DNA from: Halobellus captivus | Lineage (GTDB): Archaea > Halobacteriota > Halobacteria > Halobacteriales > Haloferacaceae | Assembly (NCBI RefSeq): GCF_007655485.1 | Contig: NZ_VJXQ01000005.1 | Coordinates: 1-64,000 of the forward strand | DNA length: 64,000 nucleotides | Direction of reading: 5' to 3' | Shown: piece after piece, positions 9,568 to 60,293 of the stretch | Layout: each line of letters begins with the position of its first letter | Position numbering within the stretch: position 1 is the first letter of the stretch | Made by a program: the position numbers and the translations under genes | The notes under the pieces: model-generated | Told to the model about the DNA's origin: nothing | The model's database searches: none | The model's input: only the letters and a program-made list of their open reading frames with translations

Positions 9568-10797
9568 TCACTGGAGCTGTTCGAGCGGTGAGACGCGAGA
9601 CACCCGCCACCCAGCGACAAATGCCCCACCGATCCCGATGAGGAACGCACAGACGATCCCGGAAAGCAAGATCCACGGTTGGACGCTTACAACATTCTCG
9701 AACCCCACGATCGTTTCGGCAACGATATTCAAGACGCGGATCGCTGGGACGGTCACTGCCGCCCCGAGGATGCCTCCCACGAAACTGAGGAGGATTGCCT
9801 GCGTTCCGACCACCCCGACTAGTGTCGATGCTGCCGCACCCTGGGCGCGAAGCGCTGCGAGGATCCGTCGTTGCTGATAGACCAACGAGAGGAGGAGATT
9901 TGTCGTGAGCGTAATACCAGCGAGGGCGGCGAAGACAACGAGACTGCCACCGGCAGCAAGCAGTACCGCTTGTCGCTCGAGCGTCGCCTGTAACTGCTCG
10001 CGGTTGGTCCGGACGTCATATTCCGGGTACGCTGCCTGAATTTCCGCTTCCACCTGGCTAAGATCTGCATCATCATCGACGTCGACAGTGATCATCGTTG
10101 CTCTGTCGTTTGCCGTCTGGCCAGTGATCGTTTGGAGCTCGCTCAGGTGCAACACGACAGTAGGCGTACCGAGGAATTGCGAGAACGTCGGTGAGATACC
10201 GACAATTCGGAACTCGTTATTCTGCGCGCTCCCGATAGAGCCGCCAAGATACAGTGTATCGTTGACCCCAACGTCATAGCGTTCGGCAGTCTGCGGTGAA
10301 ATCACCACTTCGTGACTCATCGGGCCATCGTATGAACCGCCAGCATAGTGCTGATCTTGGGATGAGAACGACTCTCCTTGAGTAATCCGTACGGATCCAC
10401 CTCTTGCAGGTGCACCTGTTCCGATGAGCGTATCGAACTCGGACCCGTTCGGAGAGACGTATACCGTCTGGAAGGCCAACGGTACCGCAGTGGTAACATC
10501 ATCTCGCTGTCCGATCTCCGCCGAGATTTGGTGGGCGTCGTAGACCGTATTCTCGAAGCCGCCGACGGAACCCGGAGCAAGCTGGACCGGGCCTCCCGTA
10601 ATCCAGAGATCTCGCCCGGATTGGTCAAACTTCTCCTCACCAGTTTCAATCACGCCGAGGCCAACGCTTCCGAGCAGCGTCATCGACAACACGGCGAGAC
10701 AGATTCCGAGGACAGCCAAGACAGTCCGGCCACGGTCGTGCCGCAGCTGCTGGACAGCGATGCCGACTACCGCACGAAATTTTGAGAGTAACAACAT
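9568..10797 (-). CDS. ABC transporter permease, FtsX/MacB type (second copy)
   Basis: 409 residues. An N-terminal membrane helix (about 18-40: TVLAVLGICLAVLSMTLLGS) is followed by an extracellular MacB-like core domain (about 45-275) and an FtsX domain with three helices (about 283-310, 328-352, 374-400: e.g. LLAAGGSLVVFAALAGITLTT). The end of the protein (WRVSRVSPLEQLQ) is the usual FtsX terminus. Such permeases work with a LolD/MacB ATPase as mechanotransmission machines that move lipoproteins, peptides or signals rather than conventional import. The start codon overlaps the upstream permease stop by one base; last gene of a three-gene operon. Confidence 0.9.
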   Translation of the reverse strand: MLLLSKFRAVVGIAVQQLRHDRGRTVLAVLGICLAVLSMTLLGSVGLGVIETGEEKFDQSGRDLWITGGPVQLAPGSVGGFENTVYDAHQISAEIGQRDDVTTAVPLAFQTVYVSPNGSEFDTLIGTGAPARGGSVRITQGESFSSQDQHYAGGSYDGPMSHEVVISPQTAERYDVGVNDTLYLGGSIGSAQNNEFRIVGISPTFSQFLGTPTVVLHLSELQTITGQTANDRATMITVDVDDDADLSQVEAEIQAAYPEYDVRTNREQLQATLERQAVLLAAGGSLVVFAALAGITLTTNLLLSLVYQQRRILAALRAQGAAASTLVGVVGTQAILLSFVGGILGAAVTVPAIRVLNIVAETIVGFENVVSVQPWILLSGIVCAFLIGIGGAFVAGWRVSRVSPLEQLQ

Positions 10798-12029
10798 CAG
10801 CCGAGCACCTCCAACACATCGGTCCGACGGGTGAGCCAGACGGGGTAAATTGAGGCCGCCGCGGCAATGACCACTGCGACAGCACCCGCTGTCAATACGA
10901 GTACGGGGTCAAATATGGCCACCGACTGTACACCGAGATAACGCGTCGCGAGCGCGTTCGTCGCAGCGATTCCGGTGAGTCCCAATCCGACGCCTACGAA
11001 GGTGCCGATCCCTGTCAAAATGAACGTCTCGGCCACGACGAGGAACGCCTGCGAGCGCATCCGGTAGCCGATCGCCGAGAGTACGGCCAGCCGCTGACGA
11101 TCGGCGTGTAACTCCAGTCCCATCATCGTCGCGACAAAGAGTGTTCCGACAACGACAGCCGTCAGGACGGCGGTCAACGCGACGGCAACCGGCAGACTCG
11201 ACGTCGAGACGCTTTGCTCGGCGAACCCGCCCTTCGAGACTACCGTCGACTGCGGGTAGAGCGATTCGAGCTCGGGCCTGACGTCGGACGACTTCGTACT
11301 CACGAGAATCTGATCGGCAGGATCGCCATCAGTCGCACCGGTAATGGCTTGCAGTTCGCTCTGGTGAAGAACGACGATCGGGAGCGGGCCAGCTCCGGTA
11401 TTGTAGCTTCCCGTTGAAATGTTCTCAACGTGGAGCGACCGGTTCGAGTCCTGCCGGGGCATCGTGAGCGAATCTCCGACTTCGGCCGATAGCAACTCTG
11501 CGGCCGGTTCGCTCGCGACGATTTCCCCCGTCCACCGTCCGTCGTAGGTTCCGTTCGCGTAGAAGGGATCACCTGGCGTCAGCGCTCCCGTCGAGACGCC
11601 GAGGACCTCACGGTCTCCACCGTCAGGGACAACGCCTGCGACGATAATATACTCGGAAGTGTCTGATGCAGGGGCCCGTAACTGAACGACACGGAGCAAA
11701 ACGGGGGTTGCATAGTCGATCTGTGGGTTCGTATTAAGCTCGGCAGTTATGTCGTGGGTTCCCCCCAGCTGTGGCCCATCGACGGATACAGCGATGGAGG
11801 ACGCCGTCCGATCCTCTGGAACGATCCAGTAATCGACGTTGTCGCCTTGGATGGCTGACTGAGAGGCGAGCCCGAGGGCGACGCCCCCAACGGTGACCAT
11901 CAGCATAATAGCGATCGCAACACCGAGAACGCTCACCGCAAGTTGTTTGCCTTCTCCACGTCGGAATCGACCGACAAGCCGACCGACTGCGATGCCGAGG
12001 AGACCGATGTATCGATGGCGGCTATCCAT
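10797..12029 (-). CDS. ABC transporter permease, FtsX/MacB type (first copy)
   Basis: 410 residues with the same plan as the downstream gene: N-terminal helix (about 30-55: LAVSVLGVAIAIMLMVTVGGVALGL is split across it), extracellular domain to about 270, then three C-terminal helices (about 275-305, 325-350, 372-398) and the end LTRRTDVLEVLG. The two permeases are paralogues and presumably form a heterodimer, as LolC/LolE do. Both contain a matching segment, VVLHxSELQxITG, just before residue 220. It overlaps the ATPase gene by 8 bases. Confidence 0.9.
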   Translation of the reverse strand: MDSRHRYIGLLGIAVGRLVGRFRRGEGKQLAVSVLGVAIAIMLMVTVGGVALGLASQSAIQGDNVDYWIVPEDRTASSIAVSVDGPQLGGTHDITAELNTNPQIDYATPVLLRVVQLRAPASDTSEYIIVAGVVPDGGDREVLGVSTGALTPGDPFYANGTYDGRWTGEIVASEPAAELLSAEVGDSLTMPRQDSNRSLHVENISTGSYNTGAGPLPIVVLHQSELQAITGATDGDPADQILVSTKSSDVRPELESLYPQSTVVSKGGFAEQSVSTSSLPVAVALTAVLTAVVVGTLFVATMMGLELHADRQRLAVLSAIGYRMRSQAFLVVAETFILTGIGTFVGVGLGLTGIAATNALATRYLGVQSVAIFDPVLVLTAGAVAVVIAAAASIYPVWLTRRTDVLEVLG

Positions 12030-12753
12030 CGCTCACGAGTCGTCCATCGTGGAGTCGGATCACCCGATCTGTCCGTTCGAGAACGCGCTCGTCGTGGGAA
12101 GCTACGACGACAGCACGATCGCTGCTGCTCGCACTGAGCGCGTTGATGATCTGTTCGCCAGTCTCGGTGTCGAGTTCACCAGTGGGCTCATCAGCGATCA
12201 GTACCTCCGGATCCGTCACGAGCGCTCGAGCGATAGCGACGCGTTGTTGTTCACCACCGCTCAGCTCTCCCGGTTTGTGCGTCGTGCGATCCTCGAGACC
12301 GACTTGGTCAAGCAGCGCCGTTGCCTTCTCACGTCGCGTCGATCTTCCGATACCGTACTCGACGAGCGGGAGGGCGACGTTGGCCCGAGCGGAAATCGAC
12401 GGCAGCAGATAGAAATGTTGGAAGACGATACCGACGTGTTCGAGTCGGAGTCGCGCGCGACGTTGTTCTGAGAGGCCGATGGTAGACGTCCCCGCCAACG
12501 TCACGTCCCCGTCTGTCGGCGTGTCGAGTCCGGCGAGAAGATGCAGTAGGGTTGACTTACCGCTTCCACTGGGTCCCGCGATGCCGACGAACTCGCCGGG
12601 ACAAATGTCGACCGACACCGAGTCGAGCGCGGTCACAGTCGGCCGCGGTTGGTTCGCGAATTTAGATTTGGATCCCCGAATGTACTGCCGCGTCACGTCC
12701 CGGCAGGTGACGACGGGGGGCTGGTCGGAGGGCGGCTGGGCGGCCTGTGCCAT
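12022..12753 (-). CDS. ABC transporter ATP-binding protein, LolD/MacB type
   Basis: 243 residues with all nucleotide-binding motifs: Walker A GPSGSGKST (60-68), Q-loop GIVFQHFYLLPS, signature LSGGEQQRVAIARAL, Walker B VLIADEPTGELD with catalytic Glu, and switch His in VVVASHDERVLE. The TGELDTETGEQI stretch is typical of the LolD/MacB/FtsE clade. It is the first gene of the leftward operon with both FtsX permeases. A TATA-like TTTAAATAG lies about 30 bases upstream of the ATG. Cargo is unknown; export or handling of surface lipoproteins would suit the neighbouring surface-protein genes, but that is speculation. Confidence 0.93.
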   Translation of the reverse strand: MAQAAQPPSDQPPVVTCRDVTRQYIRGSKSKFANQPRPTVTALDSVSVDICPGEFVGIAGPSGSGKSTLLHLLAGLDTPTDGDVTLAGTSTIGLSEQRRARLRLEHVGIVFQHFYLLPSISARANVALPLVEYGIGRSTRREKATALLDQVGLEDRTTHKPGELSGGEQQRVAIARALVTDPEVLIADEPTGELDTETGEQIINALSASSSDRAVVVASHDERVLERTDRVIRLHDGRLVSDG

Positions 12754-13202: not shown

Positions 13203-16200
13203 ATGATTATACGAATTATGAGCGGCATAACCATTAGTGGGGGGACTTTTACAGGAATTTTCCTGGTAGTCCTAGTCCTGCTTTCCCCGATTGGGAACGC
13301 AGCGACGATCGCATCGCCAGCATCAGCCGCAGTTGATTCGGGGTCCGCAGAGCAATCGGACCTTGACGCTGATGGTGCAATTCAACAAGAGATCGACTGG
13401 GAGAATGAAGACAATGTGTTTGGAGCCTCAGACAATACTTCCATTTGGGGTCCCGGAGTGAACGCGCTTCGAACTAGCTCAGAACCAGTTCATTCTTCGG
13501 GTAATATTGTCACAACTGTTGATTCTCTTGGGTTCAATGCACCACTAAACAAACCAGAGATCAAGTTCTACTCCGCAGGCGAGGAGGTTCAACTTGATTT
13601 TAACCCTTCCACTTACCCTGATAACACAGATCTCGAGGAGGTACAACTAGTCACTGCTCGTGTTGAATCGGGTTCCGAAATCCCACGTTCAATGAGCGGC
13701 CTCTCCTCCTTTTTGCAAGATAATTCCTCTGCTAATTATAGCGTCACATCGCAGACCACCTCTTCCTTCGTTACCGTTGATGGACTCTCATTTACCCCTG
13801 AACAATCGGGCCAATATGTGGTCTTTCTTGCTGATCCAGAAGCTGGTGCAAGCGGATTCACTGCGACTGACGGAGATCTGAGCCAAGACGGGAACGTCAC
13901 ATTGCTCGGGATGGACACAGTGATGGTACAAAAAGATCTATCAGATGTTACACCACCAGCAGACGGATCAACCGGAAGTGATGTGACATTCAATGTGAAT
14001 GCGGGTAATCTACCTGGAGATGAGAATGCGAGTCATGCAATAGTTCTGTATGATGAGCAGACTCTCAGCTCCGAGACCCAAACAATCACTATTTCCGGAC
14101 TTGATTCTGGCTCTACTAACATCTCTCACTCAACGAGCATCCAGTCGGTAAACGGTGAGTTCCGGATAACAAACGAACCGACAGCGTTCGGTTTCTCGCC
14201 GTCCGACCGCGAAATCACACGACCCCTCGACCCAGCGGCCTTCATTGAGACGCTGGCGGGCGACCAACTAAACAGCTCGTCCACTGGTGACGCCGTTCTG
14301 AACGCGTCGGTCACCGTAGAGAAGACCGGCCAACAGGCCGAGATCACGGTCGGCGTTCCGGCCGACTGGCCGACGACCACCGACTACCGCTGGATTCACG
14401 TCGCATCCGCAAACAACAGCACCGAGATGGTCGCGAACTCAGGCGACCTCACGCTCGGGAACGGCATCCCGCTCGAGCTAACTGCCAACGAGACGGACGA
14501 TATCGCGCCGGGAGCAAACGTCACCTTCACCGTGCGGGACGACGAGGGCAACCTCGTCGACGGCGCGACTGTCACGGTCGGTGAAGAGAGCGGAACCACC
14601 GACAGTAACGGAACCGTCACGCTTCCCGTCGAATACGTAAATGACGGGCAGGTGACGGCGACGGCGACAGCAGACGGTCCCGAAGGCGATGGAACGTATC
14701 TGGACACCTCACTCGACCTGACCGTCCGCAATCCGAACGCGCTGGTGTACAGTGACGTGTCGATTACGCCGATAGAGACCGTCGTCGACGAAGACGTCTC
14801 GATCAACGTCACCCTCACGAACAACGGGAACGTCGACCGAGAGTACAACGCCGCCGTCTACGCGAACGGCGAGGCGCTCGACGCCGGAAACGTCAGCGGC
14901 GATCTCACGGGCACGATTGGAGCCAGCGAATCGACCGATCTCCAACTGACCGCCGCGTTCGACAGGGCCGGTGACCTGAACGTTTCCGTTGGCGACTCTG
15001 AGTTCGATAGCGCGGTGCGTAGCACGCCGACACTGATACGGGTGAACCGCCAGACGGTCGAGTTGAGTGTCTCTGCAAACACCTCAGAAGTCACTGAGGG
15101 AGAGACGGTCAGATTCGACGTGACACGCGAAAGCGACGGAACTCCGGTGAACGCGTCGCTGACTGTCGACGGAACGCAACAGTGGACCGGCGCGGACGGG
15201 AGCGCGAACGTCACCTTCGAGCAGGCCGGTGACTTCACCGCGACCGCGACCAAACCGGAGACGTCGAGAGAGACCTACGTCGATGATTCTACGACGGTTC
15301 GGGTCAACGCGCCAGCGAATATCACGGTGACCGACGTCCAGCCGCTCCCGACCAACCTCTACACGGGTGACACGCTCACCGCTCTCGTGACGGTCGAGAA
15401 TCAGGGCGACCTCAACGACACTGTCCCGGTGAACTTCAGCTTCCAGGGGACGCCGGACAATCGCACTGTCTCGCTGAATGGCAGCGAGAGCCAGACCCTC
15501 AACTTCAGCGCCGAAGCGACAAGCGCGGGCGAACACGACATAGTCGTTAACGGAGACACCTTCCCGGTCACTGTCGACCGCGCGATCGTCGTCGACAGCC
15601 TCTCCGTTCCGCCGACCGTGACGATCGGCGATGATCTCGTCGTGACCGCGACCGTCGTGAACCGAGGGAGCACCGACCGCACCCGGGCTATCCCGTTCTC
15701 CGTCGACAGCGATCAGGACTCAAAAGAAGTGGACGTGAACGCGAGTAGCTCCAAAGACGTCGAGTTCATCTGGAGCTCAGACGGTGCGGCGATCGGACCC
15801 AAGACCGTCTCCGTCGACGACCTCGACGCGAGAACGGTGACCGTCGAGCGGCAGAGCGTCGGGCTCGAAATCGCCACAAACGTGACGGCGACAACAACAA
15901 CGGGTGGACCGGTCGCCGTTTACGTGAACGATTCGAGCGGTTCGCCGGTGGACGCGAATGTCACCGTCGATGGCAACCGACTCGAAACAGGTCAGGACGG
16001 CGTTGTGAACTACACCTTCGATGAAGCAGGCCGATACACCGTCCGCGCCACGAAGGCGGACACGTCCACGGAGACCTACGATCCGGCTTCGACCGGCATC
16101 AGGATCAGAGCGCCCGCGAACGTTTCGATCACGGACGCCTTCCTCCCCTCCCAGCAGGCTTACGTGGGTGACGACGTCGAGATCGGCGTCGCCGTCGAAA

Positions 16201-19200
16201 ACGACGGCGGAGTCGCTGGCGACCTCGAACTGGTCGCCACGAACGAATCGGGCGATGAGATCACAAGGAGGACCGTTAGCCTCAGCGCGGGCGAGTCTCG
16301 TACCGTCACGCTAACGACGCAGTTCGACGCCCCGACCGAAGACGAGCAGATCACCGTCGGAAGTGTCTCTGCTGGCAACCTCACTGTCGATCCCCAGTCG
16401 GTGGTGACCGAGGCTTCGCTGAACGCTTCAGCGATGACAACCGCGGACGTCGTGCGCGTGAGTGCGACGGTGGAGAATCGCGGTAGCACCACGGATGACG
16501 GAATCACTGTCAGCTTCGGAGCCGGTGAGCAGTCGGCAACTAACGGAACGGGGTCGATTGCTTCCGGTGAAACCGTCACCGTCTCGGAGACGTTCAGCTT
16601 CGGCACCAACGGCGACTACGACGTAAACGTCAGCGGCCCGACCAACGAGTTCGACGTCGGAACCGTCACCGTCGCACAGAACGTCACGGATCTTGAACTG
16701 ACTGTCGACGAACCGACGGTCACGACCGGAGAGGCGCTCGAATTCGAGGTAAATCGTACGGACGATGAATCCCTCGACACGGCGACGATCACGATCGACG
16801 GAACCGAGTACGAGGTTACCGATGGCACGGCAAGCATCGATGATCTCGACGCAGGGACGTACACCGCGGTCGTCACGAAGCCCGAGGACGAGGACGGGAC
16901 GAGCTTCAACAGCGACTCGGTGGATGTGACGGTTCAAGCGCCCGCAGACATCAGTGTCGAGAACGCCTACCGCGAGACGACGCAGGCGTACACGGGCGAC
17001 AACGTGACCATCGAAGCGGTCGTCACGAACGACGGGGACCTGAACGGGACTACGACGGTCAACCTCACCGCGGATGAGGGAGTTAAAGCGAGCGAAGAGA
17101 TCAGAGTCAACGGTAGCGAGCAGAAGACGATCACCCTGAACGCCACCTTCGACTCGCCCGGCACGCGGACGCTCTCGGTCGTTGACGAGTCCGGCGAGGA
17201 GACGGTGGCCGGAGACGTCGAGGTCGACCCACAGACCGCAGTGACTGACTACACGGTCTCGTCGACGTCGGTGACTGTCGACAACACGGTCACCGTCAAC
17301 GCGACGGTCCGAAACCGCGGGACGACCGACGATACGGACGGGCTCACGGTCGCGCTGAACAACGCGACCGGCGAGGAGCTTGAGAACAAGACAGTCGACG
17401 AGCTCGGCGCTGGAAACGTGACCTACGTCGAGTTCACGCCAACGCTTGATACCGTCGGGACGACGGAACTCTCGGTCAACGACTTGCAGGCCACGAGCGT
17501 ACTAGCCACCGAGCGGATCGTTGACCTCTCGGTCGACGTCGAGACTGAGAACCCGACGACCGAGGACGACGTCGTGTTAAACGTCACCAACAGCACGGGC
17601 GCCCCCGTTGAGGACGCGACAGTCACCGCTGGCGGCGTGACGCTCGAAACGAACGCATCCGGGCTAGCGAACCACACCTTCACCAGCGCCGGGACGCTCT
17701 CGGTGTCGGTGACGAAGGACGGGCCGAAGACGTCGTACAACCCCGCGGACGCGACGTTCACCGTGTACAACCCCGCAGAGGTGACGATCCTCGGATCGAC
17801 CGTTACGACTGGGGAAACGGTGTACGCGGGTGATCAGGTCTCCGTCGACGTCGATCTCCTGAACGTCGGCGGCGTTGCGGGCGATCGGAACGTCACGCTC
17901 CAGGTTGACGGAACGACGGAGGATTACTCCGTCGAGTCCGTCGATCCGGGCACTCGAAAGACGGTGACGCTCTCGACGCAACTCAACGAGACCGGTGAGA
18001 GGGTGCTCGATGCTACGCACAACGAGACCGACGTGATCAGTCGGTCGACGGCCAACGTCCAGAAGGCAGCGACGGTCGCGAACTACACGCTGAATCGGAC
18101 GGCTGTTGCAACTGGTGAACCGATTCGGGTGCAGGCGAACGTCACGAACCGCGGTGGGATCGAAGATACCGTCGAGGTGAATCTCTCGGTTGGAGGCGAG
18201 CAGACAGAGACCCGATCTGTCACCGTCGCCGACAGCGAGACCGAGTCCGAGAACTTCACGGTCTCATTTGAGGAGAACGGGTCGAGCACCGTCGAGATCA
18301 ACGACCTGGATCCGACAACGGTGTCTATCGCGCTGCAGCAGGCCTCGCTGAGTCTGACCACCTCGACGCCAACAGTCTCGGCCGGTGAAACGGTCGTGTT
18401 CAACGTCGAAGACGAGAACGGCGACGCAGTCGAGAACGCCGTTGTCGCAATCGGGGATCAGCGCGTCTCGACCGATCAGTTCGGGAGCGCGACGACGTCA
18501 GTCAGGGTGAACGGAACGTACACCGCCGTCGCAACGAAGACGACGACCGATGGGGTGGCCTACGAGCGCGACTCCGTCGGGGTGACGGTCACCGATCCGC
18601 TTGCGGTTCCGGACACGGCTGACTTCGGCGAGGCTGATGCCGCGCCGAATGGCGGGGACGAAGAGACACTCACTGTCGAGATCGCGAACGACGGCGGACG
18701 CCCGATTTCGCTCGGGAGCGCCAGCATCATCGGATCTAACTCGAGTCAGTTCGAGGTCCGTCAGGCCCCCGAATCGGTCGCCGCCGGTGAGTCCGCTGAG
18801 ATGATCCTCGCGTACACGCCCGCGACGCGCGGTGAAGTCTCCTCGACGCTCCGGTTCCGTGCGGACACCCCGCGGAACCCGGTTCGGACGGTCGATCTAT
18901 CCGGCACCGGCGTCGCCCCGGGAATCAGCGTCAACGAATCGTCGCTGGCGTTCGGAAACGAAACTGCCATCGGCGAAACAGCGACGGAGACAGTCGAGAT
19001 CGAAAACACCGGTAACGCCGACCTCTACGTCTCCTCCGAATCGATGGGTGACGGCTTCTCGCGGTCGCTGAGCGGAACAACCACGATCGCGCCGGGCGAT
19101 AACGAGACGGTCGATGTCACGTTCTCCCCGGACGCTCCGCAGGAGTACGGCAGCCAACTCCGTCTGTCCTCGAACGATCCGTTCAGCGGAACGGTGACCG

Positions 19201-22200
19201 TGGGAGCCAGCGGCACCGGACTCGGCGGCGAACTGCTGGTCTCGCCAGCACCCGACGACACTGGAGCCACCGACATCTCGCTCGGTTCCGTGACCCAGGG
19301 ATCGTCGTCGACCGCAGACGTCCTGATCGAGAACACCGGAACTGACGACCTCGCGGTCACCCCCGTGATCGCGAACGACGACACCAACGACTTCGCGATT
19401 CGCAACAGTAGCGGGAGCGTCAACGACTCCTCGATCACGCTGGCGTCGGGGGCATCGGAGTTCCTGACGATCAACGTGACACCGTCGACGGCAGACTCCC
19501 CCACGGCGAACATCACGTTTAACAGCGCGGACGAGAGCCCGCGGATCGACGTGGCAGCGACGACGCTCACGCCGACTGCCGAGGTCACGCCTGACCCGAC
19601 CAGCGAGTCCCTCAACTTCAGCGGAGTCGCGGTCGGCGGTTCGACGACCAACGCGACCGTCATCGAGAACACGGGCGACGCGGCCCTCGAAGTCGACACC
19701 ACGGACGCGATCCCGTCCGGATCGCCGTTTGAACTCGTCGACTCACCCGGAACGATCACGATTCAGCCGGAGGAAACGCGCGAGCTTCCGGTTCGGTTCA
19801 GCCCGACGAGTCCGGGCGAGAAGAATGGAATTCTGACGGTCGAGACGAACGATCCGAGCAACGAAACGATCGAGCTCCAACTCCGGGGCGACGGCGAACG
19901 CAGTAGTCTCACCGGCAGTACCGGAACTGTCGAGTACGAATCGATCGGTGAAGACGTGTCGTCGACGGCGACGGTCACTCTCACCAACGACGGCACTGAG
20001 GAACTCACCGGCCTCCGCGTCGATTCGAAGACCGGAAGCGGCGCAGGACAGTTCGCGGTCGATTCCAGCACGCTCCCCGACTCGCTCGACGCGGGTGAGT
20101 CGACAGACGTCACGATCAAATTCGCGCCAACCGAGGACGGAAGCCACGCGGCGACCGTCACGTTCGCGGCATCCGGCGACGTCGCTGGATCCAGCCAGTT
20201 CGCGGTCTCGCTCTCCGGCGATGCGATGCCGCCGGACGTCTCGGTTGACGCGGACACGCTCCAGTACGGGTACGTCGACATCGGCGGTGAAGATGCGAGC
20301 GAATCCGTCACGATCTCGAACGACGAGCCCGGAACGAACCTCACTGTCGAGAGCGTGTCGATCACCGGTTCGGACGCCGCCGCGTTCACGGCTTCTGACG
20401 CGCCGTCTGCGGGAACCGACATCTCCGGAAGCGGTTCGGAGACGTTCGACGTCGAGTTCAACCCGACGGAGACCGGCCAACAGACCGCAACGCTGACGAT
20501 CGAGACCGACGATCCCGACGAGGACACCATCGAGGTAACGCTCGTCGGTGTCGGCTCCGCGCCGAGTGCCTCGGTCGACCCGAGCGCGATCGGCTTCGGG
20601 CAGGTCCCGATCGACTCGACGAGCGATTCCGAGACGATCGAGATCACGAACGACGGCGGCGAGGCGCTTGAGATCTCGGATCTCGCCCTCGTCGGACCCG
20701 ACTCAGAGCAGTTCAACGTCACGAGCGGCGATGACAGTGACTCCGCCATTGTCCCAGGTGCTACTCGGGCGGTCACAGTCGTCGCAACGCCGACAAGCAC
20801 GGGAGATCTGACAGCGAACCTGACTGTCAAATCGAACGCACCTGCTGATACGAACGTGACGCTTACTGCGACGGGTACTGCTCCCGACCTCAGCGTCACA
20901 GAGGACCTGGATGGAGCGTTCGGCGATGTTCGCACTGGTAGCTCCGAACGGCGTTCACTCACCGTCACTAACGACGGCAACGCGACGCTCGAAATCCAGC
21001 GACCGACAACGAGCGGATCCGACGCGTTCAGCGTCGTGAGCGGTGGAGCGACAACGCTCGCACCGGACGAAAGCACGACGTACGCGGTCGCCTTCGCGCC
21101 GGACGAACAGACCGACGACTTCGAGGGAACGTTCAACCTGACGTCGAATGACCGTGACCTCACGGTCGATCTCAACGGCTCGGGCGTCGAGGGCGAAGCG
21201 TCACTCGATCCGTCCACGTACGACTTCGGTGACGTCCAGATCGACAGCGCGACTGAGGAGACGTTCTCCTTCACCAACGATGGCGACGCTTCGCTGACAA
21301 TCACGAGCGTTTCCGTCACGGGCGACGACGCGTCCGCCTTCTCGGTCAGCGGACTCTCGACCGGCACGGTCGGAGTCGATGAATCCGAGACCTTCTCAGT
21401 GGAAGCCTCACCGAGCGTGACGGGCAGCGCGTCCGCACAACTCGAAATACAGACGAGTGACTCTGGCACGACGACAGCCAGCCTCGGCGCGACCGGCGTC
21501 GAACAGGACATCGATCTCGGGACACAGAGCGTCACGTTCGACCGGACGCGACTCGGGACGACCACGACCGCGACGTTCACCATCTCGAACCCCGGCAACG
21601 CGCCGCTGAACGTGTCCGACCTCACGCTCGCCGGAACCGATTCCGACCAGTTCGAGGTTGTTGAACCGTCCGTCTCCGGTGGCTCACCGCTGACAATTGC
21701 GCCGCAGAACAGCCGCGAAGTCACTGTTGAATTCGCACCTCCGACGGACGATGTGCAAGAAGCGAAAGACGGCACTGCCCAGACCGCGACGCTGCTCGTT
21801 CAGAGCGACGATCCCGACGAGGGAACGCTCCAAGTCGACCTCAGCGGAACGGGCAAGACGCCAGAACTCCGCGTGAGCAGTGACGCGATCCGATTCGGAT
21901 CGACGTCTATCGGTGACACGTCCACGCGGACGCTGACGATCAGGAACGACGTCAGCGCAACCGCCAACGTGAACCTCCGCGCTGTGGCCGCCTCTGGCGG
22001 GATCGGCAACGAGTTCACCGTGACCGACACGGGTGATGACGTCCTCGAACCGGGCGAGTCGACGACTGCCACCGTCGAGTTGACGCCGCAGGTTCCCGGA
22101 CCGAAGTACGGTTCGCTAAACGTCATCACGGGTGACCCGCGTCAGCCCGGGAAGTCGGTGTTCCTCTCGAACTCCGAGACGATAGTCACCGTCGAGTACG

Positions 22201-23903
22201 GCAGCGTCGATCTCTCCTACGAGAACGTGGAGTCCGGACTTCAGCCGGAGCGCACGTTCCGGCCGTACCCGGACGCCGACGCTGAAGTGACCGGCACGCA
22301 GCCGTACGTCCAGACGAGCGATGACTTCGAGCTCCGGATCGACGGTTCGTCCGATGCGTTCGGTGCGGAAGTCAACTCAAAGGAGTACGGTGCTATCCGG
22401 TACGTCTCGGCGACGAAGTCGAACATTTCGTCGAGCTCGCTTGAGAACAATACCTTCACATTCCGCGTGAGTAAGGCCAAACTGGCTGACTTAGATGCGA
22501 GTAAGTCGGACGTCGAGCTCCTCCGGTACGACGGAACGAGTTACGAACCCGTAAGCGGTGGAACGACGCTCGAAAGCGAGGAGCAGACGGACTACGTCTA
22601 CGAGGCGACTACCGATAGCTTCTCGCAGTTCGCAATCGTCGTGGATGATCCGCAGCCCAACCTCGGCGTCGTCAGTGGAAGTGCAAGCCTGAACACTTCG
22701 TCTGTCACGGTGAACAATCCGGTGGCGCTCACTGTCGAAGTCGAAAACACCGGTGCCGCGGACGGCACGGCAGACTTCGACCTCACCCTTGACAAAACGA
22801 CTGAAAAGACCGAATCCGTCTCCGTCCGCGCAGGCGATACAAGAGAGGTCACGATCGAGTTCACCCCAGCTTCGACGGGATCGTTCAACGTTGCATTCGG
22901 CGGTGAATCCGCTGGAACGCTCGATGTGACCGAAGCTGGCGACCCGGACGATTCAACCGATACGACCAGTCCGGGCAGTTCGAGTGGCTCCAGTGGAGCA
23001 ACGACCCAACCTGCTTCAGTCGACGTGACCGTCCAAGACGGCACCGCTGAGGTGTCGATTTCCGGTGCGAGTGCTGATCAGCCAGTGACGATCGAACCCG
23101 GCGTGACCGGTGAAGGCGACGCGAGTCCGCGACTCGATTCGCTGACCGTGGGCTTCAGTCAGGACGTCGAGAGCACATCGATGTCCGTTAGCGGCTCACC
23201 CGGTGACACGCCGCCCGTGAACGCGGACCAGGATCTCGGCTACTTCAACATCGAGCACGAGTTCACCGACGAACAGGTCGGTGACGTGACGTTCGACTTC
23301 ACGGTCGACCGCGACCGTCTCGAAGAACGCGGGGTTGCGCCGGAAGATGTCGTACTCTACCGCTACCACGACGGCTCGTGGGATGCCCTTGAGACGTCAC
23401 AGTCGGGTAGCAGTGATGGATCGGTGCAGTTCCAAGCCACCTCTCCCGGCCTCTCCGTGTTCGCTGTGAGTACCGCACAGGCCCAACAGCCCGCGTTCTC
23501 GGTGACCGATGCGAACCTCGAATCGACTGAGATCGCAACGGGCGATTCCGTCGACGTCACAGCAACCGTTGAGAATACCGGGAGCAGTTCCGGAACGTTC
23601 ACAGCGAACCTCACTGTTGACGGGGAGGTCGTCTCCCAGGAGTCAGTGACTGTTGACGCCGGAAGCTCAGAGACGGTGACGTTCAGCCAGACGTTCGAGA
23701 GTGCTGGATCCTACGATATCAGTGTAAGCGGCACGACCGCGGGTACGCTAACGGTCACGGAAGAAACGTCACCCACGACTACAACAACCCAACCCGATGA
23801 TGAGCCCGAACAGGATGGCATCAACTTCGCCCTCCTCGGGCTACTCGTGTTGGTTATTGCAGTGCTCATCGGCGTCTTCGTCTACTGGCGTCGAGAGCAA
23901 TAA
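13203..23903 (+). CDS. Giant surface protein of CARDB/Ig-like and choice-of-anchor repeats
   Basis: 3566 residues. A signal peptide (about 15-45: IFLVVLVLLSPIGNAA) is followed by: a unique region (about 45-420); alternating CARDB and Ig-like modules (about 420-1795; recurring APANITVTDV / AYTGDNVTI and ETVRFDVTRE patterns); eleven choice-of-anchor D (HYDIN/ASPM-like) repeats of about 105-120 residues (about 1800-2990; e.g. SLAFGNETAIGETA, VDLSGTG); a PGF-pre-PGF-like domain, a CARDB domain, a second PGF-pre-PGF domain (about 3270-3425) and a last CARDB (about 3430-3510). A Thr-rich linker and a single helix with a basic end (VFVYWRREQ) close it. No PGF tripeptide precedes that helix, so it is probably a plain membrane anchor. 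NxS/T sequons are abundant. Likely an elongated, glycosylated adhesin or scaffold. The first about 940 bases are AT-richer than the rest. ATG 13218 is an alternative start. Confidence 0.93.
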   Translation: MIIRIMSGITISGGTFTGIFLVVLVLLSPIGNAATIASPASAAVDSGSAEQSDLDADGAIQQEIDWENEDNVFGASDNTSIWGPGVNALRTSSEPVHSSGNIVTTVDSLGFNAPLNKPEIKFYSAGEEVQLDFNPSTYPDNTDLEEVQLVTARVESGSEIPRSMSGLSSFLQDNSSANYSVTSQTTSSFVTVDGLSFTPEQSGQYVVFLADPEAGASGFTATDGDLSQDGNVTLLGMDTVMVQKDLSDVTPPADGSTGSDVTFNVNAGNLPGDENASHAIVLYDEQTLSSETQTITISGLDSGSTNISHSTSIQSVNGEFRITNEPTAFGFSPSDREITRPLDPAAFIETLAGDQLNSSSTGDAVLNASVTVEKTGQQAEITVGVPADWPTTTDYRWIHVASANNSTEMVANSGDLTLGNGIPLELTANETDDIAPGANVTFTVRDDEGNLVDGATVTVGEESGTTDSNGTVTLPVEYVNDGQVTATATADGPEGDGTYLDTSLDLTVRNPNALVYSDVSITPIETVVDEDVSINVTLTNNGNVDREYNAAVYANGEALDAGNVSGDLTGTIGASESTDLQLTAAFDRAGDLNVSVGDSEFDSAVRSTPTLIRVNRQTVELSVSANTSEVTEGETVRFDVTRESDGTPVNASLTVDGTQQWTGADGSANVTFEQAGDFTATATKPETSRETYVDDSTTVRVNAPANITVTDVQPLPTNLYTGDTLTALVTVENQGDLNDTVPVNFSFQGTPDNRTVSLNGSESQTLNFSAEATSAGEHDIVVNGDTFPVTVDRAIVVDSLSVPPTVTIGDDLVVTATVVNRGSTDRTRAIPFSVDSDQDSKEVDVNASSSKDVEFIWSSDGAAIGPKTVSVDDLDARTVTVERQSVGLEIATNVTATTTTGGPVAVYVNDSSGSPVDANVTVDGNRLETGQDGVVNYTFDEAGRYTVRATKADTSTETYDPASTGIRIRAPANVSITDAFLPSQQAYVGDDVEIGVAVENDGGVAGDLELVATNESGDEITRRTVSLSAGESRTVTLTTQFDAPTEDEQITVGSVSAGNLTVDPQSVVTEASLNASAMTTADVVRVSATVENRGSTTDDGITVSFGAGEQSATNGTGSIASGETVTVSETFSFGTNGDYDVNVSGPTNEFDVGTVTVAQNVTDLELTVDEPTVTTGEALEFEVNRTDDESLDTATITIDGTEYEVTDGTASIDDLDAGTYTAVVTKPEDEDGTSFNSDSVDVTVQAPADISVENAYRETTQAYTGDNVTIEAVVTNDGDLNGTTTVNLTADEGVKASEEIRVNGSEQKTITLNATFDSPGTRTLSVVDESGEETVAGDVEVDPQTAVTDYTVSSTSVTVDNTVTVNATVRNRGTTDDTDGLTVALNNATGEELENKTVDELGAGNVTYVEFTPTLDTVGTTELSVNDLQATSVLATERIVDLSVDVETENPTTEDDVVLNVTNSTGAPVEDATVTAGGVTLETNASGLANHTFTSAGTLSVSVTKDGPKTSYNPADATFTVYNPAEVTILGSTVTTGETVYAGDQVSVDVDLLNVGGVAGDRNVTLQVDGTTEDYSVESVDPGTRKTVTLSTQLNETGERVLDATHNETDVISRSTANVQKAATVANYTLNRTAVATGEPIRVQANVTNRGGIEDTVEVNLSVGGEQTETRSVTVADSETESENFTVSFEENGSSTVEINDLDPTTVSIALQQASLSLTTSTPTVSAGETVVFNVEDENGDAVENAVVAIGDQRVSTDQFGSATTSVRVNGTYTAVATKTTTDGVAYERDSVGVTVTDPLAVPDTADFGEADAAPNGGDEETLTVEIANDGGRPISLGSASIIGSNSSQFEVRQAPESVAAGESAEMILAYTPATRGEVSSTLRFRADTPRNPVRTVDLSGTGVAPGISVNESSLAFGNETAIGETATETVEIENTGNADLYVSSESMGDGFSRSLSGTTTIAPGDNETVDVTFSPDAPQEYGSQLRLSSNDPFSGTVTVGASGTGLGGELLVSPAPDDTGATDISLGSVTQGSSSTADVLIENTGTDDLAVTPVIANDDTNDFAIRNSSGSVNDSSITLASGASEFLTINVTPSTADSPTANITFNSADESPRIDVAATTLTPTAEVTPDPTSESLNFSGVAVGGSTTNATVIENTGDAALEVDTTDAIPSGSPFELVDSPGTITIQPEETRELPVRFSPTSPGEKNGILTVETNDPSNETIELQLRGDGERSSLTGSTGTVEYESIGEDVSSTATVTLTNDGTEELTGLRVDSKTGSGAGQFAVDSSTLPDSLDAGESTDVTIKFAPTEDGSHAATVTFAASGDVAGSSQFAVSLSGDAMPPDVSVDADTLQYGYVDIGGEDASESVTISNDEPGTNLTVESVSITGSDAAAFTASDAPSAGTDISGSGSETFDVEFNPTETGQQTATLTIETDDPDEDTIEVTLVGVGSAPSASVDPSAIGFGQVPIDSTSDSETIEITNDGGEALEISDLALVGPDSEQFNVTSGDDSDSAIVPGATRAVTVVATPTSTGDLTANLTVKSNAPADTNVTLTATGTAPDLSVTEDLDGAFGDVRTGSSERRSLTVTNDGNATLEIQRPTTSGSDAFSVVSGGATTLAPDESTTYAVAFAPDEQTDDFEGTFNLTSNDRDLTVDLNGSGVEGEASLDPSTYDFGDVQIDSATEETFSFTNDGDASLTITSVSVTGDDASAFSVSGLSTGTVGVDESETFSVEASPSVTGSASAQLEIQTSDSGTTTASLGATGVEQDIDLGTQSVTFDRTRLGTTTTATFTISNPGNAPLNVSDLTLAGTDSDQFEVVEPSVSGGSPLTIAPQNSREVTVEFAPPTDDVQEAKDGTAQTATLLVQSDDPDEGTLQVDLSGTGKTPELRVSSDAIRFGSTSIGDTSTRTLTIRNDVSATANVNLRAVAASGGIGNEFTVTDTGDDVLEPGESTTATVELTPQVPGPKYGSLNVITGDPRQPGKSVFLSNSETIVTVEYGSVDLSYENVESGLQPERTFRPYPDADAEVTGTQPYVQTSDDFELRIDGSSDAFGAEVNSKEYGAIRYVSATKSNISSSSLENNTFTFRVSKAKLADLDASKSDVELLRYDGTSYEPVSGGTTLESEEQTDYVYEATTDSFSQFAIVVDDPQPNLGVVSGSASLNTSSVTVNNPVALTVEVENTGAADGTADFDLTLDKTTEKTESVSVRAGDTREVTIEFTPASTGSFNVAFGGESAGTLDVTEAGDPDDSTDTTSPGSSSGSSGATTQPASVDVTVQDGTAEVSISGASADQPVTIEPGVTGEGDASPRLDSLTVGFSQDVESTSMSVSGSPGDTPPVNADQDLGYFNIEHEFTDEQVGDVTFDFTVDRDRLEERGVAPEDVVLYRYHDGSWDALETSQSGSSDGSVQFQATSPGLSVFAVSTAQAQQPAFSVTDANLESTEIATGDSVDVTATVENTGSSSGTFTANLTVDGEVVSQESVTVDAGSSETVTFSQTFESAGSYDISVSGTTAGTLTVTEETSPTTTTTQPDDEPEQDGINFALLGLLVLVIAVLIGVFVYWRREQ

Positions 23904-24610: not shown

Positions 24611-27600
24611 ATGCGTGCACCGATCTCACGATACGGCCGGGTTGCGATTGTGTCGTTGGTCTGCGTGCTCCTCGTTGTCAGTCCAATAGCCAGCGTTGCG
24701 ATGGTACCGGGACTCGGCGCCCAAGAGTCGCTCCCGGGCAGCGTCAGCGCCCAGAGCAGCGGCTCAGCTCCCGTCTGTTCGGACGTAAGCTACGCCGGGA
24801 GTGGGACAGAATCGAATCCATACCAAGTTACAAACGTCTCTCAACTCCAATGCATCGAGTCGTGGAACCTCAGTGCGCACTACGTTCTCACCGCCGACAT
24901 CGACGCATCGGGGACGAGTGAATGGAACAGTGGTGCCGGGTTCGATCCGATCGGGGATTTCTCACCAGCATTCAACGGGACTTTCGATGGGGATGGACAC
25001 ACAATTTCAGGCCTATCGATTGACCGTCCCTCCGAACTCGGAGTCGGGCTGTTCGGGATCGTGAAAAACGGTGGAACCGTCGAGAACGTTCATCTCCGCG
25101 ATGCGAACGTTAACGGTGGAGACGGAAGCGGTCTTCTCGCGGGCAATGTTAATGTAGACGGTCTCGTCCGATCAACCTCTGTGAGCGGGAACGTGACCGG
25201 GAGCACTTTTGTCGGCGGTGCTGTCGGATCTGTGAACGGCGGGACGCTGGAAAACGTCTCGGCAAGCGGGGACGTCCAAGGGAGTGAGTCCATTGGGGGT
25301 CTCACTGGCGACGTCAGTGGTTCCGGTCTCGTCGAGGGATCAGAAGCAGAGAGTACTGTGAACGGCCAAACTGCGGTCGGCGGGTTCGTCGGGTCAATGA
25401 CAGGCCGCCCAGCAACTGTAACTGGCTCGACAGCAGAGAGTGACGTCAACGGAACGAGTAACGTCGGCGGATTCGCCGGACTGGTCGAGGCGAGCACGAT
25501 CAAATTGTCATCGGCGACGGGCAGCGTTACGGCTTCCGAACGTGTCGGTGGCTTCGTTGGAAACGTCACCACTGACACGAACGGATACGAGGGCCAAGTC
25601 GTCAATTCATACACGACCACATCAGTTGAAACGATCGAAGAGACACAAGAGGCCGGTGGATTCGTGGGTGTCCTTCGAAGCGGCAGCGTCATCACGTCGT
25701 ACGCGGCCGGGTCGATCACCGGCGCGGCGACGGAAACCGGCGGTCTCGTCGGGCACAGTACCGATGGAACGGTCACTGACTCCTATTGGGACACTGACGT
25801 AAGCGGCGTGTCGGCATCTGAAGGTGGGACGGGCCTCACCACCTCGCAGATGACTGGAGACGACGCCAAGGAGAATATGACCGGATTTGACTTCTTCAGG
25901 GTCTGGAAGCTGACAACGACGTATCCCGAATTCAAGAATCAATATGTGACCGCTGAGATCAATGGATCGCTCTCGGGGCCTAACGGTGCGTCTCTCGCTG
26001 GCGATTCAGTCGGCGCATTTTATGAAGCCGACACAGACGATGACGATGTCGTTGGCGCAGACACCGAAATCGAAGCCGACGGAGGTTTCGAGATCAACGA
26101 TCTGCCAGCCAGCCAGACGTATAATTTGGTCTACGGCGATACGAACACCAGTGGGGAACACAACGGGGTTCCTGATCTCTACGCAATCGATCGCGTCACA
26201 CCACCGGAAACGGTCACTGAGACTCTCCCCGAAGCGCATAATGTTACAATCCGGGTTACCGATGAATATGGAAATCCGATCGAGAATGCGGATGTTCTCA
26301 TCCAGCACACCAACGGTGAAGCCTTCATCAAAGAAGGTGAGCGAAACGCGACAAACGATACTGGCTATCTGTCCGTCGGCGATTCGACATCTCTCGAATT
26401 AGTCGGAAATATCTCCGTTGAGGCGGAGTTTAATGGGGTCGAGAATTCGACCGAAGTCGAAGTTGCCAGCGATCGAATGATTACTGTCGAACTAGCCGGA
26501 GCGAGGGTCAACGGAACGCTGACATCCGCTTCCGAGTCGACGTCATTGGAGGGCGACACGGTCGGAATCTTCACGCAGACAGAAGAGGATGGCATCGAAG
26601 GCATCGACACGACTGTGGGCCAAAACGGCCAGTTCGAGATCGGTGCCGCTCTAAGTGGTGAGGAATACACGCTAGCCTTCGGCGACGACGAGGTCGGGAC
26701 GACGCCGAACGGGGTGCCCGACCTGTACGCGATCCAACGGGTCACCGCGCCTGCGGACGTCGACGAGGTAACGATTCCAAAGGCACACAACGTCACGGTC
26801 CGCGTTATCGGTCAGAACGGTGACGGGATCGAAGGTGCGGGTGTCGCGATCGGTCACGCTAACGGCGACGCTACCGTTGAGGAGGGCCAGCGAAACGCGA
26901 CGAACGAATCGGGCTATCTCACGCTTGACGGCGCGAGCACCTTCGAGCTCGTCGATGACGTCACCGTATACGCAGAGTCCAACGGACTCAACGCATCGAC
27001 GACCGTGAGCGTCGACAGTGATCAACAGATCACCGTCGAACTGACCCGTCCAGAGGTTACTGGAAGTCTCTCCGCAGAGAGCGGTACATCACTAGAGAAC
27101 GATTCCGTTAGCATTTACCGTGAGATCGATGGTGATAACGTAGAACGCATCGACGCGACCGTCGACGCGGACGGAAACTTCACTATCAGCGGCGGGTCCG
27201 CGGACGCGACGTACAACCTCGTGTACGGGGACACAAACGGGTCGACCGAGCCGAACGGCGTGCCGGACCTCTACGCGATCGATCGGGTCTCGCCGCCAGA
27301 TGACGTCGGGGAAGTTACACTCCCGGAGGCGTCCAACGTTTCGATCCGTGTTGTCAAGCCCGGTCTCCATGACGACAGTCCCATTGAAGCCGCCGACGTG
27401 ATGGTCAGCCATAGAAACGGTAGTGCTGAAATCCGAGAGGGCGAACGTCGAGCGACGAACGAGAACGGATATCTCGTCGTGAACGGATCGACGTCACTGG
27501 AACTCGTTGGTAACGTCTCCGTGTGGGCGAACTACAACGGCTTCAACAATTCCACCGATGTCGAAATCACCGGTGACCGTGAGATCACTGTCGAACTGTC

Positions 27601-30600
27601 CGGCCACGAGGTCAGTGGTACCGTTACTGCAGACGGCCAGCCTGTCTCGAACGGGACTGTTACCTATAGCGGGATTGAGGAATGGAGCGCGCCGTTCTGG
27701 AGTGAGGCCGTCACGTCCGAAGACGGAACGTACCGGACTGATCTGCTTCCGGCGCTCTACTCCGTGGAGTTCGTCCAGCGGGCGCCGACAGTGATCGGGG
27801 CACCCGCTTTCCCGACTGACAGAGTGCCGGACGTTTACGCGGCCGAGCCCACCGTTGTCGACGATCCGACACAGAACGATCTAACGCTTCCGAAGGCGAA
27901 CCGCCTCCAAGTCAGAGTGGTCGATGAATCGGGTGATCCGATTTCGGGTGAACAGCTCGGTGTCACGCACATTAACGGTGAGAACCGTGCCGGGCTGTCA
28001 ACCCTTCCGCGCACCAACGAGACCGGATGGATCAACTTCAGCGGCACGTCCAACGTCGAAGTCGTCGGCACCGTAGAACTGGATCTCAAGTCCCAGCAGT
28101 ACGTCGCCCGCGAGACGATCGAAGTAACGTCGGACGAGACGTACGTCCTCGAAGCCAAGGAGGTCGTCAACGTCACGGGGAGCATCGCCAACGCTAGCGG
28201 CGACTCCGTGGCCAACGGAACAGTGTTCGCCCGGTCGTCGGATGGATCGATGTCCGCTGATGCGCCGGTCGGCGAGAGCGGCGAATTCGAGCTCGAGCTC
28301 GCGTCGAACTCGACCTACGAACTCGGCTTCCGACAGGACGGTGAGGGAACAGAAGTGAACTTCCCAGAAGATGGCATTCCTGATATCCAATCGATCACTG
28401 TCGTCGAAACCGGTACTGAGGATGACTCGATAGGTACACAACAACTCGGTGTCGGCCACCCGCTCGACATCTCCGTTGTGGGACCAGAAGAAAATCCCGT
28501 GGATGACGTCACTGTCTTCGTCTCCGATAACAACGACGAGGAGGACTTCGCAGTTGGCCTAGGTGGTGGTGTCAACGAGACCGGTTCGTTCGTGCCGTAC
28601 GGCACCGACGAGCCAGGTATCGAGGTGAATGGTTCCATCGATGTGTACGTCGACGCGCCCGAAGACTCCGGTCTCGCCGACGCAAGTGAGCGGAATATCG
28701 TGGTTGACGGGGCGAGCTCCAGGACGATCCAGCTTCAAGAAGCGGCGTCGGTGAACGGGACAATTCTTCAACCGGACGGGGAAACGGCCGCCGATGAAGT
28801 GATACAGGTGAACGCGGTCAAGGAAGGCAGCACCGAAACCGTCTCTACTGATGCGAACGGCTACTTCGATGCGCGTGTCGCCGCCGACGGTGCCTACTAC
28901 GTGGGATTCGTACAGGGCGACGCGGACAGCCCGTTCGGTCCGCCCTATCCACAGGACGGCATCGTTGACGTCTACGCCATCGAGAACGTGACGAGCGCAG
29001 AAGCGGCCGCGCTCGGACCCGTCACGCTTCCAAAAGCTCACAACCTCACCGTGAACGTCGTCGGTCCGGAAGGCAATCAGGTCGAGGACGCGACGGTTCG
29101 GCTGTGGAGCACCGAAAACGATGCGTACCAGTGGGGCGGTGAAGGGACCGTCACTGACGGCACGCTTCACCTGGAAGCCAACGGATCAGTCGATATCGAA
29201 GCATCGGCTCCCGAGGGAACAGATCTCCGAAGCGACTACGAACGCGTCGACGTGACGGAAGACGAGACCGTCAACATCACGCTCGACCGCAACGTGACCG
29301 TCTCCGGTAGCGTCGAGTATGCGAACGGAACCCCCGCGACCGGCTACACGGCGGAGCTGTTCGGTCAGGAGTCAGAGAGCGGTGACCACGGACTCACCAA
29401 CGAGACAGGGTTCTACGAGTTGAACCCCGAGCCGAATCAGTTCTACTCGCTCGGGGTCAAACAGACGGACCTCGCCGAGGAGACAGTCGACTTCCCGAAG
29501 GACGGCCAGCCCGATCTCCATACCTTCGGTGCAATCGAGGTCGAGGATGAGGACCGCAACGCTGGCGAGCGGACGCTTCCGCAGGCACACCTCGTGAACG
29601 TCACGGTCGAGAACGAGAGCGGTGAGCCGGTGTCCGACGCCGACGTCGGCATCAACGTCCTCGCGGGCTCCTTCGGCGCGCACCACCCGGCGACGACCAG
29701 AGGCGACGGCGAAGTCGTCCTCGCCGGGAGCAGTACGCCCGGAGTCGAGGTGAACGGTACGCTCCGCGTGTCCGTCGCTGGAACCGACGAGTACGCCCAG
29801 AACGTGACCGAGTTCGAGGTAGACGGGGACCGTGACGTCACGCTCGTCGTCAACAACCGCGTCAACGTGACCGGCCAGCTCGTGAACGAAAGCGGATCGG
29901 ACTTGAGCGGCTACGATGTCCTGGTCGGTCAAGGTGAGACAGCATTCGTTCCCGGAGAAGCGAACGAAACCGGATCGTTCGCAGTCCCGGTCGGAGCGAA
30001 CCAGAACTACAGCGTGACCGCCGGGCAGGCCGACGGTGAGCAAGGAGTAATGGCACCGCGCGATGGCCTGACCGACTTCTACCAACTCGCGATCGTCGAA
30101 GTGGGAGACGACGACTACTCCCTCGACGAACGAACCGTTCCGGATTCGAACGGCGTGCTCAACGTCAGCGTCGAGAACGAATCCGGGACGCCCGTAGAGA
30201 ACGCACTCGTCACCGTCATCCCCACGCAGGCCGGGACGTCCGGTCCCAGTAGCGCGGGCCTCACGAGACTGACCGACGAAGGAGGGTACCTCGCCGTGAA
30301 CGACCGTCCCGGAATCGAGGCCGCGGGGAACTACACGATTCGCGTGGAACGGCCGCCGAACGCCGACCGGTTCGTCGACGAAACCCACGTGAGAACGGTG
30401 AACGTTACCAACGACGAGACCGTCGAGGTGACGCTGAACGAAGTTGAAACGGTTCCCGAACCGGACATCGGCATTCAGAGCACTTCGCTCGAATCCAGCG
30501 AAATCACTGCTGGCGACTCGGTGACCGTCGATGTTACCCTCGAGAACGCGGGCGAGGCCGACGGGACGACGTCGGTCGAGTTAACCGCGAACGGGGAAGT

Positions 30601-31198: not shown

Positions 31199-31222
31199 AT
31201 TCTTTTCGACCGGTCCTTTTTA
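31199..31222 (+). terminator. Possible T-tract terminator between convergent genes
   Basis: TTCTTTTCG and CCTTTTTA lie in the 36 bases between the convergent ends of the 2190-residue protein gene and the next minus-strand gene. Archaeal termination often uses T-tracts; sequence pattern only. Confidence 0.3.
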
Positions 31223-35794: not shown

Positions 35795-35866
35795 TCGGAT
35801 GACGGATCCCTGGTGACGGTCGCCGAACACAAACATTCAACTTCGGCGCTACGAATCAGTACCACG

Positions 35867-39782: not shown

Positions 39783-40067
39783 ACCGACGGCCTCCGGTTC
39801 GTCCACTGACTCCTGTGCGGTGGCTCGCTGATGCCCTGGCGACGAATTCGGTTTGGCGCCTGCCACGGAGGACGATAGTCCGGGTGCCGTGCGCTCGGGG
39901 ACGTGCCTTCTGCGTCCCAACGGTGGGTGCTTCCTCGAAGTGCTCTGTCGGAGATTGGGAACTGAAAGACGATCATAGGGAAATACGACGCGTAGTCGGC
40001 GTGACAGCGTTCGTTACTCATCCTGTGCGTGTGCGAGGTTTATAAGTTCGGCCTTCTCGGGTCCTAT

Positions 40068-56515: not shown

Positions 56516-56517
56516 GG

Positions 56518-58480: not shown

Positions 58481-58517
58481 CAATTCAATTTTACACGTGA
58501 CAGTGATAATTATTCTG

Positions 58518-60256: not shown

Positions 60257-60280
60257 TAACTAGTGATCTTCCTCATTGGA

Positions 60281-60293
60281 TTTAGATATATTG
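60281..60293 (-). promoter_or_regulatory. TATA-like box of the leftward sugar operon
   Basis: CAATATATCTAAA on the minus strand, 25-37 bases upstream of ATG 60256. Confidence 0.4.

Follow-up and report, generated by a model that had tools for sequence, protein, structure and literature searches.

The window (the whole 64,000-nucleotide stretch of Halobellus captivus DNA that was analysed) contains, on its forward strand, one very long gene (13203..23903, from ATG to stop), encoding a putative surface protein of 3566 residues. The reading frame is genuinely coding, with 47-198 stops in each of the other five frames and a third-position GC of 74%, and its product lacks cysteine, carries 84 N-X-S/T sites and contains more acidic (16%) than basic (4%) residues, which fits what is expected of a secreted haloarchaeal protein. 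The protein starts with a predicted signal peptide region (residues 1-36, 13203..13310), read by eye from a basic start, a hydrophobic stretch and an Ala-rich end, and continues with an N-terminal head domain (residues ~36-429, 13308..14489; not in Pfam, and a beta-sandwich according to its model) and with an Ig-like/CARDB block (residues 430-1802, 14490..18608), which is longer in most other giant proteins of this type. A rod of eleven modules then follows: D1 (18609..18893), D2 (18894..19208), D3 (19209..19550), D4 (19551..19880), D5 (19881..20207), D6 (20208..20540), D7 (20541..20858), D8 (20859..21167), D9 (21168..21479), D10 (21480..21836) and D11 (21837..22136). The membrane-proximal part is formed by a first PGF-pre-PGF domain (22173..22640; NCBIfam stretch 22413-22640), which co-aligns with the rod in distant relatives, a CARDB-like module (residues 3151-3229, 22653..22889; a weak match of the module HMM), a second PGF-pre-PGF domain (23007..23471; NCBIfam stretch 23241-23471), a CARDB module found by Pfam (residues 3432-3509, 23496..23729) and a C-terminal membrane helix without a PGF motif (23820..23888).

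By the curated NCBIfam cut-offs, the protein belongs both to choice_anch_D (NF012200; 11 stretches, 357.8 bits, cut-off 45) and to PGF_pre_PGF (TIGR04213; two stretches, 102.7 bits, cut-off 28, the two scoring 64.5 and 43.2 bits singly), and Pfam finds HYDIN/ASH/Cep192-type modules together with six CARDB stretches. Neither TIGR04126 nor PF18204 is among its NCBIfam and Pfam matches and there is no PGF near the helix, so that the protein does not belong to the PGF-CTERM group. This anatomy agrees with an earlier note on this DNA, which had described one 3566-residue ORF with eleven choice-of-anchor D modules, two PGF-pre-PGF domains and an ordinary C-terminal membrane helix lacking the PGF motif (the helix is indeed hydrophobic and is followed by the tail YWRREQ); the conserved N-terminal domain and the conserved gene neighbourhood had been overlooked. 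An identical layout is present in other genomes, so the architecture is not unique to the window, and no described role for such a protein was found in the accessible portions of the full-text literature on its domain names. A recent tandem expansion within the gene was considered and rejected, given that a repeat search finds only short repeats, 60-82% similar.

Upstream of the giant gene, and divergent from it, lie three reverse-strand genes for an ABC transporter: the ATP-binding subunit (12022..12753), an FtsX-like permease (10797..12029) and a MacB/FtsX-like permease (9568..10797). The next gene downstream (24611..31183, forward) encodes a 2190-residue surface protein with GLUG and CarboxypepD_reg repeats, CARDB and PGF-CTERM (Pfam and NCBIfam matches), which means that both kinds of anchor are in use at one locus. 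It is followed by the genes for a 366-residue secreted-looking protein without a Pfam match (31220..32320, reverse), a DUF1616 membrane protein (PF07760, 411.7 bits; 32439..33494, reverse), a 758-residue protein that matches DUF4129 towards its C-terminus at a score under the Pfam cut-off (33560..35836, reverse), a DUF58 protein (35738..37288, forward), a conserved protein of the cluster, again with no Pfam match (37797..38738, forward), a MoxR-type AAA ATPase (PF07726, 207.6 bits; 38805..39920, reverse) and a DUF4350 protein (PF14258, 128.2 bits; 40068..40982, reverse). The block holding the giant gene and this cluster is flanked by integrase-like genes (4729-5958, reverse, and 44535-45635, forward) and several homologous loci are on plasmids, which suggests possible mobility of the block. 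At its right end (56000-64000) the window is AT-rich, with a GC of 38-49% versus 51-67% elsewhere.

Structure prediction of part of the repeat block, which the earlier note had proposed, assigns the rod modules to the ASH/HYDIN fold: a model of D5-D8 built from seven sequences has a mean pLDDT of 87.5 and a pTM of 0.61, and its best 23 Foldseek matches are all ciliary central-apparatus chains (best E 2.5e-25). A pTM of 0.61 in a four-module model does not settle the rigidity of the rod. The ciliary ASH/HYDIN-type rods of the central pair apparatus (7sqc, 9ijj) share the predicted module fold with the window rod, but they belong to intracellular, microtubule-associated eukaryotic proteins and have a sequence identity to it of 11-19%.

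The eleven modules are individually orthologous across rod proteins. Four other giants (4804 residues in genome G006, of the same genus as the window, 3691 in G013, 4381 in G224 and 4476 in G254) each show the same counts as the window protein, 11 NF012200 and two TIGR04213 stretches, and all end in a plain helix. Among these four and the window protein, which come from the same genus or family, every module finds its best match in its positional counterpart (220/220 comparisons); positional counterparts share 59% identity, against 31% for modules at other positions and 31% for modules of one protein. The rods of G009 and G271 also match by position in 11/11 modules each. The G271 giant occurs as two frames, of 789 and 3701 residues, 238 bp apart (L150, 12312-12550), as a result of gene fission, decay or an assembly error. 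The register extends to three distant rod proteins from other genera, G017 (1959 residues), G057 (3498 residues) and G130 (4224 residues), all at ~30% identity (31-33%). The best centred match is in place for 11/11 modules in G017, for 11/11 after one extra module in G057, and for 9/11 in G130. Modules 3 and 10 of G130 are weak and were assigned to the gaps left by better-matching modules, which makes its eleven less independent. The observed register was equalled by 0/2000 permutations for each of the three. The conserved unit in these distant proteins includes the first PGF-pre-PGF domain.

Choice-of-anchor D proteins (NF012200) at large share the module family with the window rod, but expanded control arrays lack its register: in G258 and G102 (L152 and L153), whose D modules were copied recently (15 in the first, at least 21 in the second; mean identity 55-58%), 1889/2000 and 1573/2000 permutations, respectively, reached the observed value. 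A 6-module array (G049) keeps the order only in part (4/2000), and for a 4-module array (G023) the value was 592/2000. The register is also absent in the D-module proteins of G076, G113 and G119 and of contig C1 of the window genome. Near full-length matches to D1-D5 occur in twelve genomes, including the window's, among 391 of the class, and the rod counts given here cover ten proteins, leaving aside G010 (3 modules in a fragment that contains an unread run) and G054 (a 28% match). The named relatives all belong to the class Halobacteria. A phylum-wide search with D10-D11-PGF-pre-PGF gave mostly single-domain matches and one more partial relative, in G076, and a plasmid search with the rod gave Variovorax and other arrays at 24-25% identity.

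The head domain is conserved on its own and reaches well beyond the giants. No Pfam family matches it in the window protein, although single members of its alignment give scattered weak matches, and a profile built from 27 members matches 90/292 genomes of the class. Most carriers are proteins of 480-1000 residues without a rod, made of the head, CARDB, often one PGF-pre-PGF domain, and an anchor. The AlphaFold model of the head (66 sequences; mean pLDDT 81.7, pTM 0.80) is all-beta except for short helices; structurally it comes closest, among PDB entries, to transglutaminases (their C-terminal beta-domains) and to further Ig/FnIII folds (Z ≤8.6), and a sequence comparison with the PDB gave nothing convincing (best E 0.006). 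An enzymatic function was considered for the head; as the Z values do not exceed 8.6 on a common fold, only a general beta-sandwich fold is claimed.

Heads and anchors are exchanged between rod proteins. Between the window protein and its G009 counterpart, identity is 20-30% over residues 1-400, 40-64% over residues 401-1800 and 55-87% over residues 1801-3100. In a tree of 84 heads, the window head groups with those of L089 (2323 residues) and L035 (747 residues), both without D arrays, and the heads of the other giants form a separate clade of their own; the AU test rejects a grouping of all the giants' heads in one clade (p 0.006), a result obtained with 26 of the 84 rows and for a group picked with the larger tree already known. 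In G057 the rod has a front made of a beta-helix and GLUG, and in G130 the front is an unrelated cadherin/Big_9/PKD region. The G017 rod protein (L147, 3157-9036, reverse) has a short or almost absent front and a PGF-CTERM end, and it is encoded as a separate gene; a head-domain gene, whose product also ends in PGF, lies ~10 kb upstream of it. Residues 529-880 of the G057 front are 39% identical to residues 63-457 of the window neighbour at 24611-31183, a similarity that is a possible Rosetta-stone link between the two proteins.

The other end of the protein is variable as well. Past the first PGF-pre-PGF domain, the window protein is 63-87% identical to that of G009 (up to residue 3500) and ~28-47% identical to most others, and this part is less alike in four of the five giants compared with the window, showing that the membrane-proximal region varies too. 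Nine of the ten examined rod proteins end in a plain helix and one in PGF, and on the tree of 84 heads the anchor type switches at least 12 times. The C-terminal ends of 83 head-domain proteins (window included) comprise 35 PGF ends, 33 plain helices, 2 PGF-like ends, 11 without a helix and 2 cut off; these classes were assigned by our own hydropathy and motif rule, and the counts are non-independent, since the set includes related genomes. The set covers the fetched part of the 90 matching genomes, several of those omitted sharing a frame length with a fetched relative. NCBIfam agrees with the rule, TIGR04126 (at E 0.001) matching 35/35 of the PGF ends and 0/33 of the plain-helix ends.

The earlier note had held that PGF-pre-PGF domains normally precede archaeosortase signals and are used here with another anchor. 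The second part is true of the window protein; the first is false in haloarchaea, where TIGR04213 matches 30/33 plain-helix members of the head-domain family versus 11/35 PGF members. Nor is a non-PGF anchor exceptional outside this family: in 89 TIGR04213 places, which are the examined share of the 114 above cut-off in 79 genomes of the class, there are 49 plain helices (some carrying xGF motifs that could be diverged signals), 31 PGF ends, 3 PGF-like ends, 1 doubtful case, 4 without a helix and 1 duplicate. The surprise expressed in the note came from the domain's name, and PGF-pre-PGF is only a name, which does not predict PGF anchoring in haloarchaea.

The genes next to the head domain are conserved together with it. 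In the fetched flanks of 82 head-domain genes we found the permease 41 times, MoxR 34, DUF4350 34, DUF1616 32 and DUF58 20, with at least one of the five present at 66/82 loci; the five were found at 0/10 control loci (three further TIGR04213 loci of the window genome and seven D-module loci without the head domain). The G009 locus reproduces the complete gene order of the window. At 52/82 loci the head-domain gene has a homologue of the 366-residue protein within 1 kb, divergently at 33, in a search that left out the low-complexity tail of this protein; the 366-residue protein is thus a candidate partner. These results tie giant haloarchaeal surface proteins to a widespread, uncharacterised MoxR/DUF58/DUF4350 neighbourhood and enlarge that neighbourhood by a new family of head domains and by an ABC transporter.

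The reading that we favour, with a probability of about 0.55, is that the giant protein is an extracellular stalk anchored in the membrane, with a rod of constant length and exchangeable heads, handled by the neighbouring ATPase and ABC proteins. The anatomy, the orthology of the modules, the exchange of heads and anchors and the conserved neighbourhood are observed; the location at the surface, the shape of the rod, adhesion or recognition and the part played by the neighbours are inferred. Such a protein would be exported through its signal peptide by Sec and then retained by a permanent C-terminal membrane helix, presenting, outward from the membrane, the two PGF-pre-PGF/CARDB units, the eleven ASH/HYDIN-type modules, the variable Ig/CARDB spacer and the head at the tip. 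Recombination would swap the head and the anchor, leaving the rod length and the module order constant. Because a constant rod is combined with an exchanged head and anchor, the most likely task of the rod is to keep a head for recognition or adhesion a defined distance away from the cell; adhesion or recognition is suggested by the head exchange and by the architecture. The MacB/FtsX-type ABC transporter and the MoxR, DUF58, DUF4350 and DUF1616 proteins would most likely export, mature or move the stalk. Several points speak against this reading: few genomes encode the giant form (about a dozen among 391 of the class), the constant module number may simply reflect modules that have diverged past the point of recombining, and the neighbourhood link is incomplete, the permease being present at 41/82 loci and absent from the G006 genome, which has a giant.

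The second of these points is the main rival on the constant module number and, in our judgement, a real possibility, though one that falls short of even odds. According to it, the giant would be an ordinary large adhesin in which drift to ~31% identity ended unequal crossing-over, so that eleven modules are inherited without selection on length. The low similarity between the modules of the window protein (31% on average, at most 42%) is consistent with this, as are a gene without long near-identical DNA repeats and the close kinship of six of the nine other examined rods, which come from the same genus or family (over D1-D5, five of them share 61-64% identity with the window and one shares 43%). 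Loss of modules by deletion, however, needs no similarity between them, and yet eleven are kept in 10/10 examined rods (one of which has one more module ahead of them), including the three at 31-33% from other genera, while the Ig/CARDB blocks of these proteins differ in length.

Repeat proteins on microbial surfaces usually vary their copy number freely. That eleven modules stay recognisable by position down to ~30% identity, with the tip and the anchor exchanged, suggests a selection on length or register that can be tested. A stronger version of the stalk reading, speculative and in our view rather doubtful, takes the rod as an extracellular molecular ruler, by analogy with the ciliary ASH rods inside cells: each of its modules would owe its positional conservation to docking a partner or setting a distance in register, and in haloarchaea one rod would be fitted with different heads (the new head domain, beta-helix/GLUG or cadherin/PKD) and anchors and built or moved by MoxR and the MacB/FtsX-type ABC module. 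If true, it would amount to an exchangeable-head surface apparatus without an earlier description.

The nearest described gene neighbourhood is that of arCOG01314, in which DUF4350, MoxR and DUF1616 proteins with Ig proteins were proposed in 2015 to form a secretion or membrane-remodelling system, itself a prediction (Makarova, Galperin and Koonin; PMC5898192, from its accessible text). The window locus shares with it DUF4350 (arCOG01314), the MoxR ATPase, DUF1616 (pfam07760) and the Ig-type surface proteins, and we tentatively take the DUF58 protein as the counterpart of its secreted vWA/Ig protein; the three-gene MacB/FtsX-type ABC transporter, the 366-residue conserved protein and the giant stalk proteins belong to the window locus only, as far as that description goes. 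The giant might accordingly be conceived as a structural or cargo Ig-type outer component of such a predicted secretion system, with no role as a recognition fibre. This is somewhat unlikely: DUF4350, MoxR, DUF58 and DUF1616 do share the locus with the giant, and predicted S-layer proteins with Ig-like domains are counted in the system in the text consulted (PMC5898192), but the giant form is optional, most head-domain proteins being of 480-1000 residues without a rod, and the heads get exchanged.

Two further known systems resemble the locus in part. The PFNA operon of bifidobacteria also combines a large FN3 surface protein with a MoxR ATPase, a DUF58 protein and a transglutaminase-like protein, but it is bacterial and includes a protein kinase, and the available part of its description has neither ABC permeases nor an eleven-module rod (PMC8430577). 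VARTIG of Thermococcales is, like the window protein, a large secreted archaeal Ig/CARDB protein with one region exchanged by recombination; in the sections consulted, it varies its C-terminal Ig domain and shuffles small downstream genes (PMC8416519), whereas the window protein varies an N-terminal head on a conserved rod. With its rod and first PGF-pre-PGF domain conserved, its head variable and its neighbours conserved, the window protein is not a VARTIG; in the same sections, the authors of that work report no counterpart outside Thermococcales and mention large CARDB proteins in Halobacteria (PMC8416519).

A different role for the ABC genes would be that the giant is the substrate or the extracellular arm of the MacB/FtsX-type transporter, which would do mechanical work on it. 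FtsEX and LolCDE do such work on their partners. The ATPase gene lies within 3 kb of the head-domain gene at 30/82 loci and within 1 kb at 20/82, the MacB/FtsX-like permease (9568..10797 in the window) has at most a single copy per genome (present in 8 of 21 genomes), and the window gene pair is divergent, all of which is in line with such a role; half of the head-domain loci, however, have no permease in the fetched flank, and we regard this role as distinctly unlikely.

As to the C-terminus, PGF signals of euryarchaea are cleaved and lipid-attached by ArtA, according to the accessible part of PMC8559796. That the window protein is a diverged archaeosortase substrate, with a sorting signal altered past recognition, is very improbable: several relatives have near-PGF ends and an E-P-G/A-G-F-like motif stands ahead of the helix in 11/49 plain-helix TIGR04213 places, but TIGR04126 separates the plain-helix from the PGF ends completely, the tail after the helix is longer in plain-helix members (median 7 versus 4), and the window protein lacks the motif. 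A similar motif, E-P-G-G-F or E-P-A-G-L, precedes the plain helix in several giants (C-termini of L085, L086, L087 and L088), where it could be an unrecognised processing signal.
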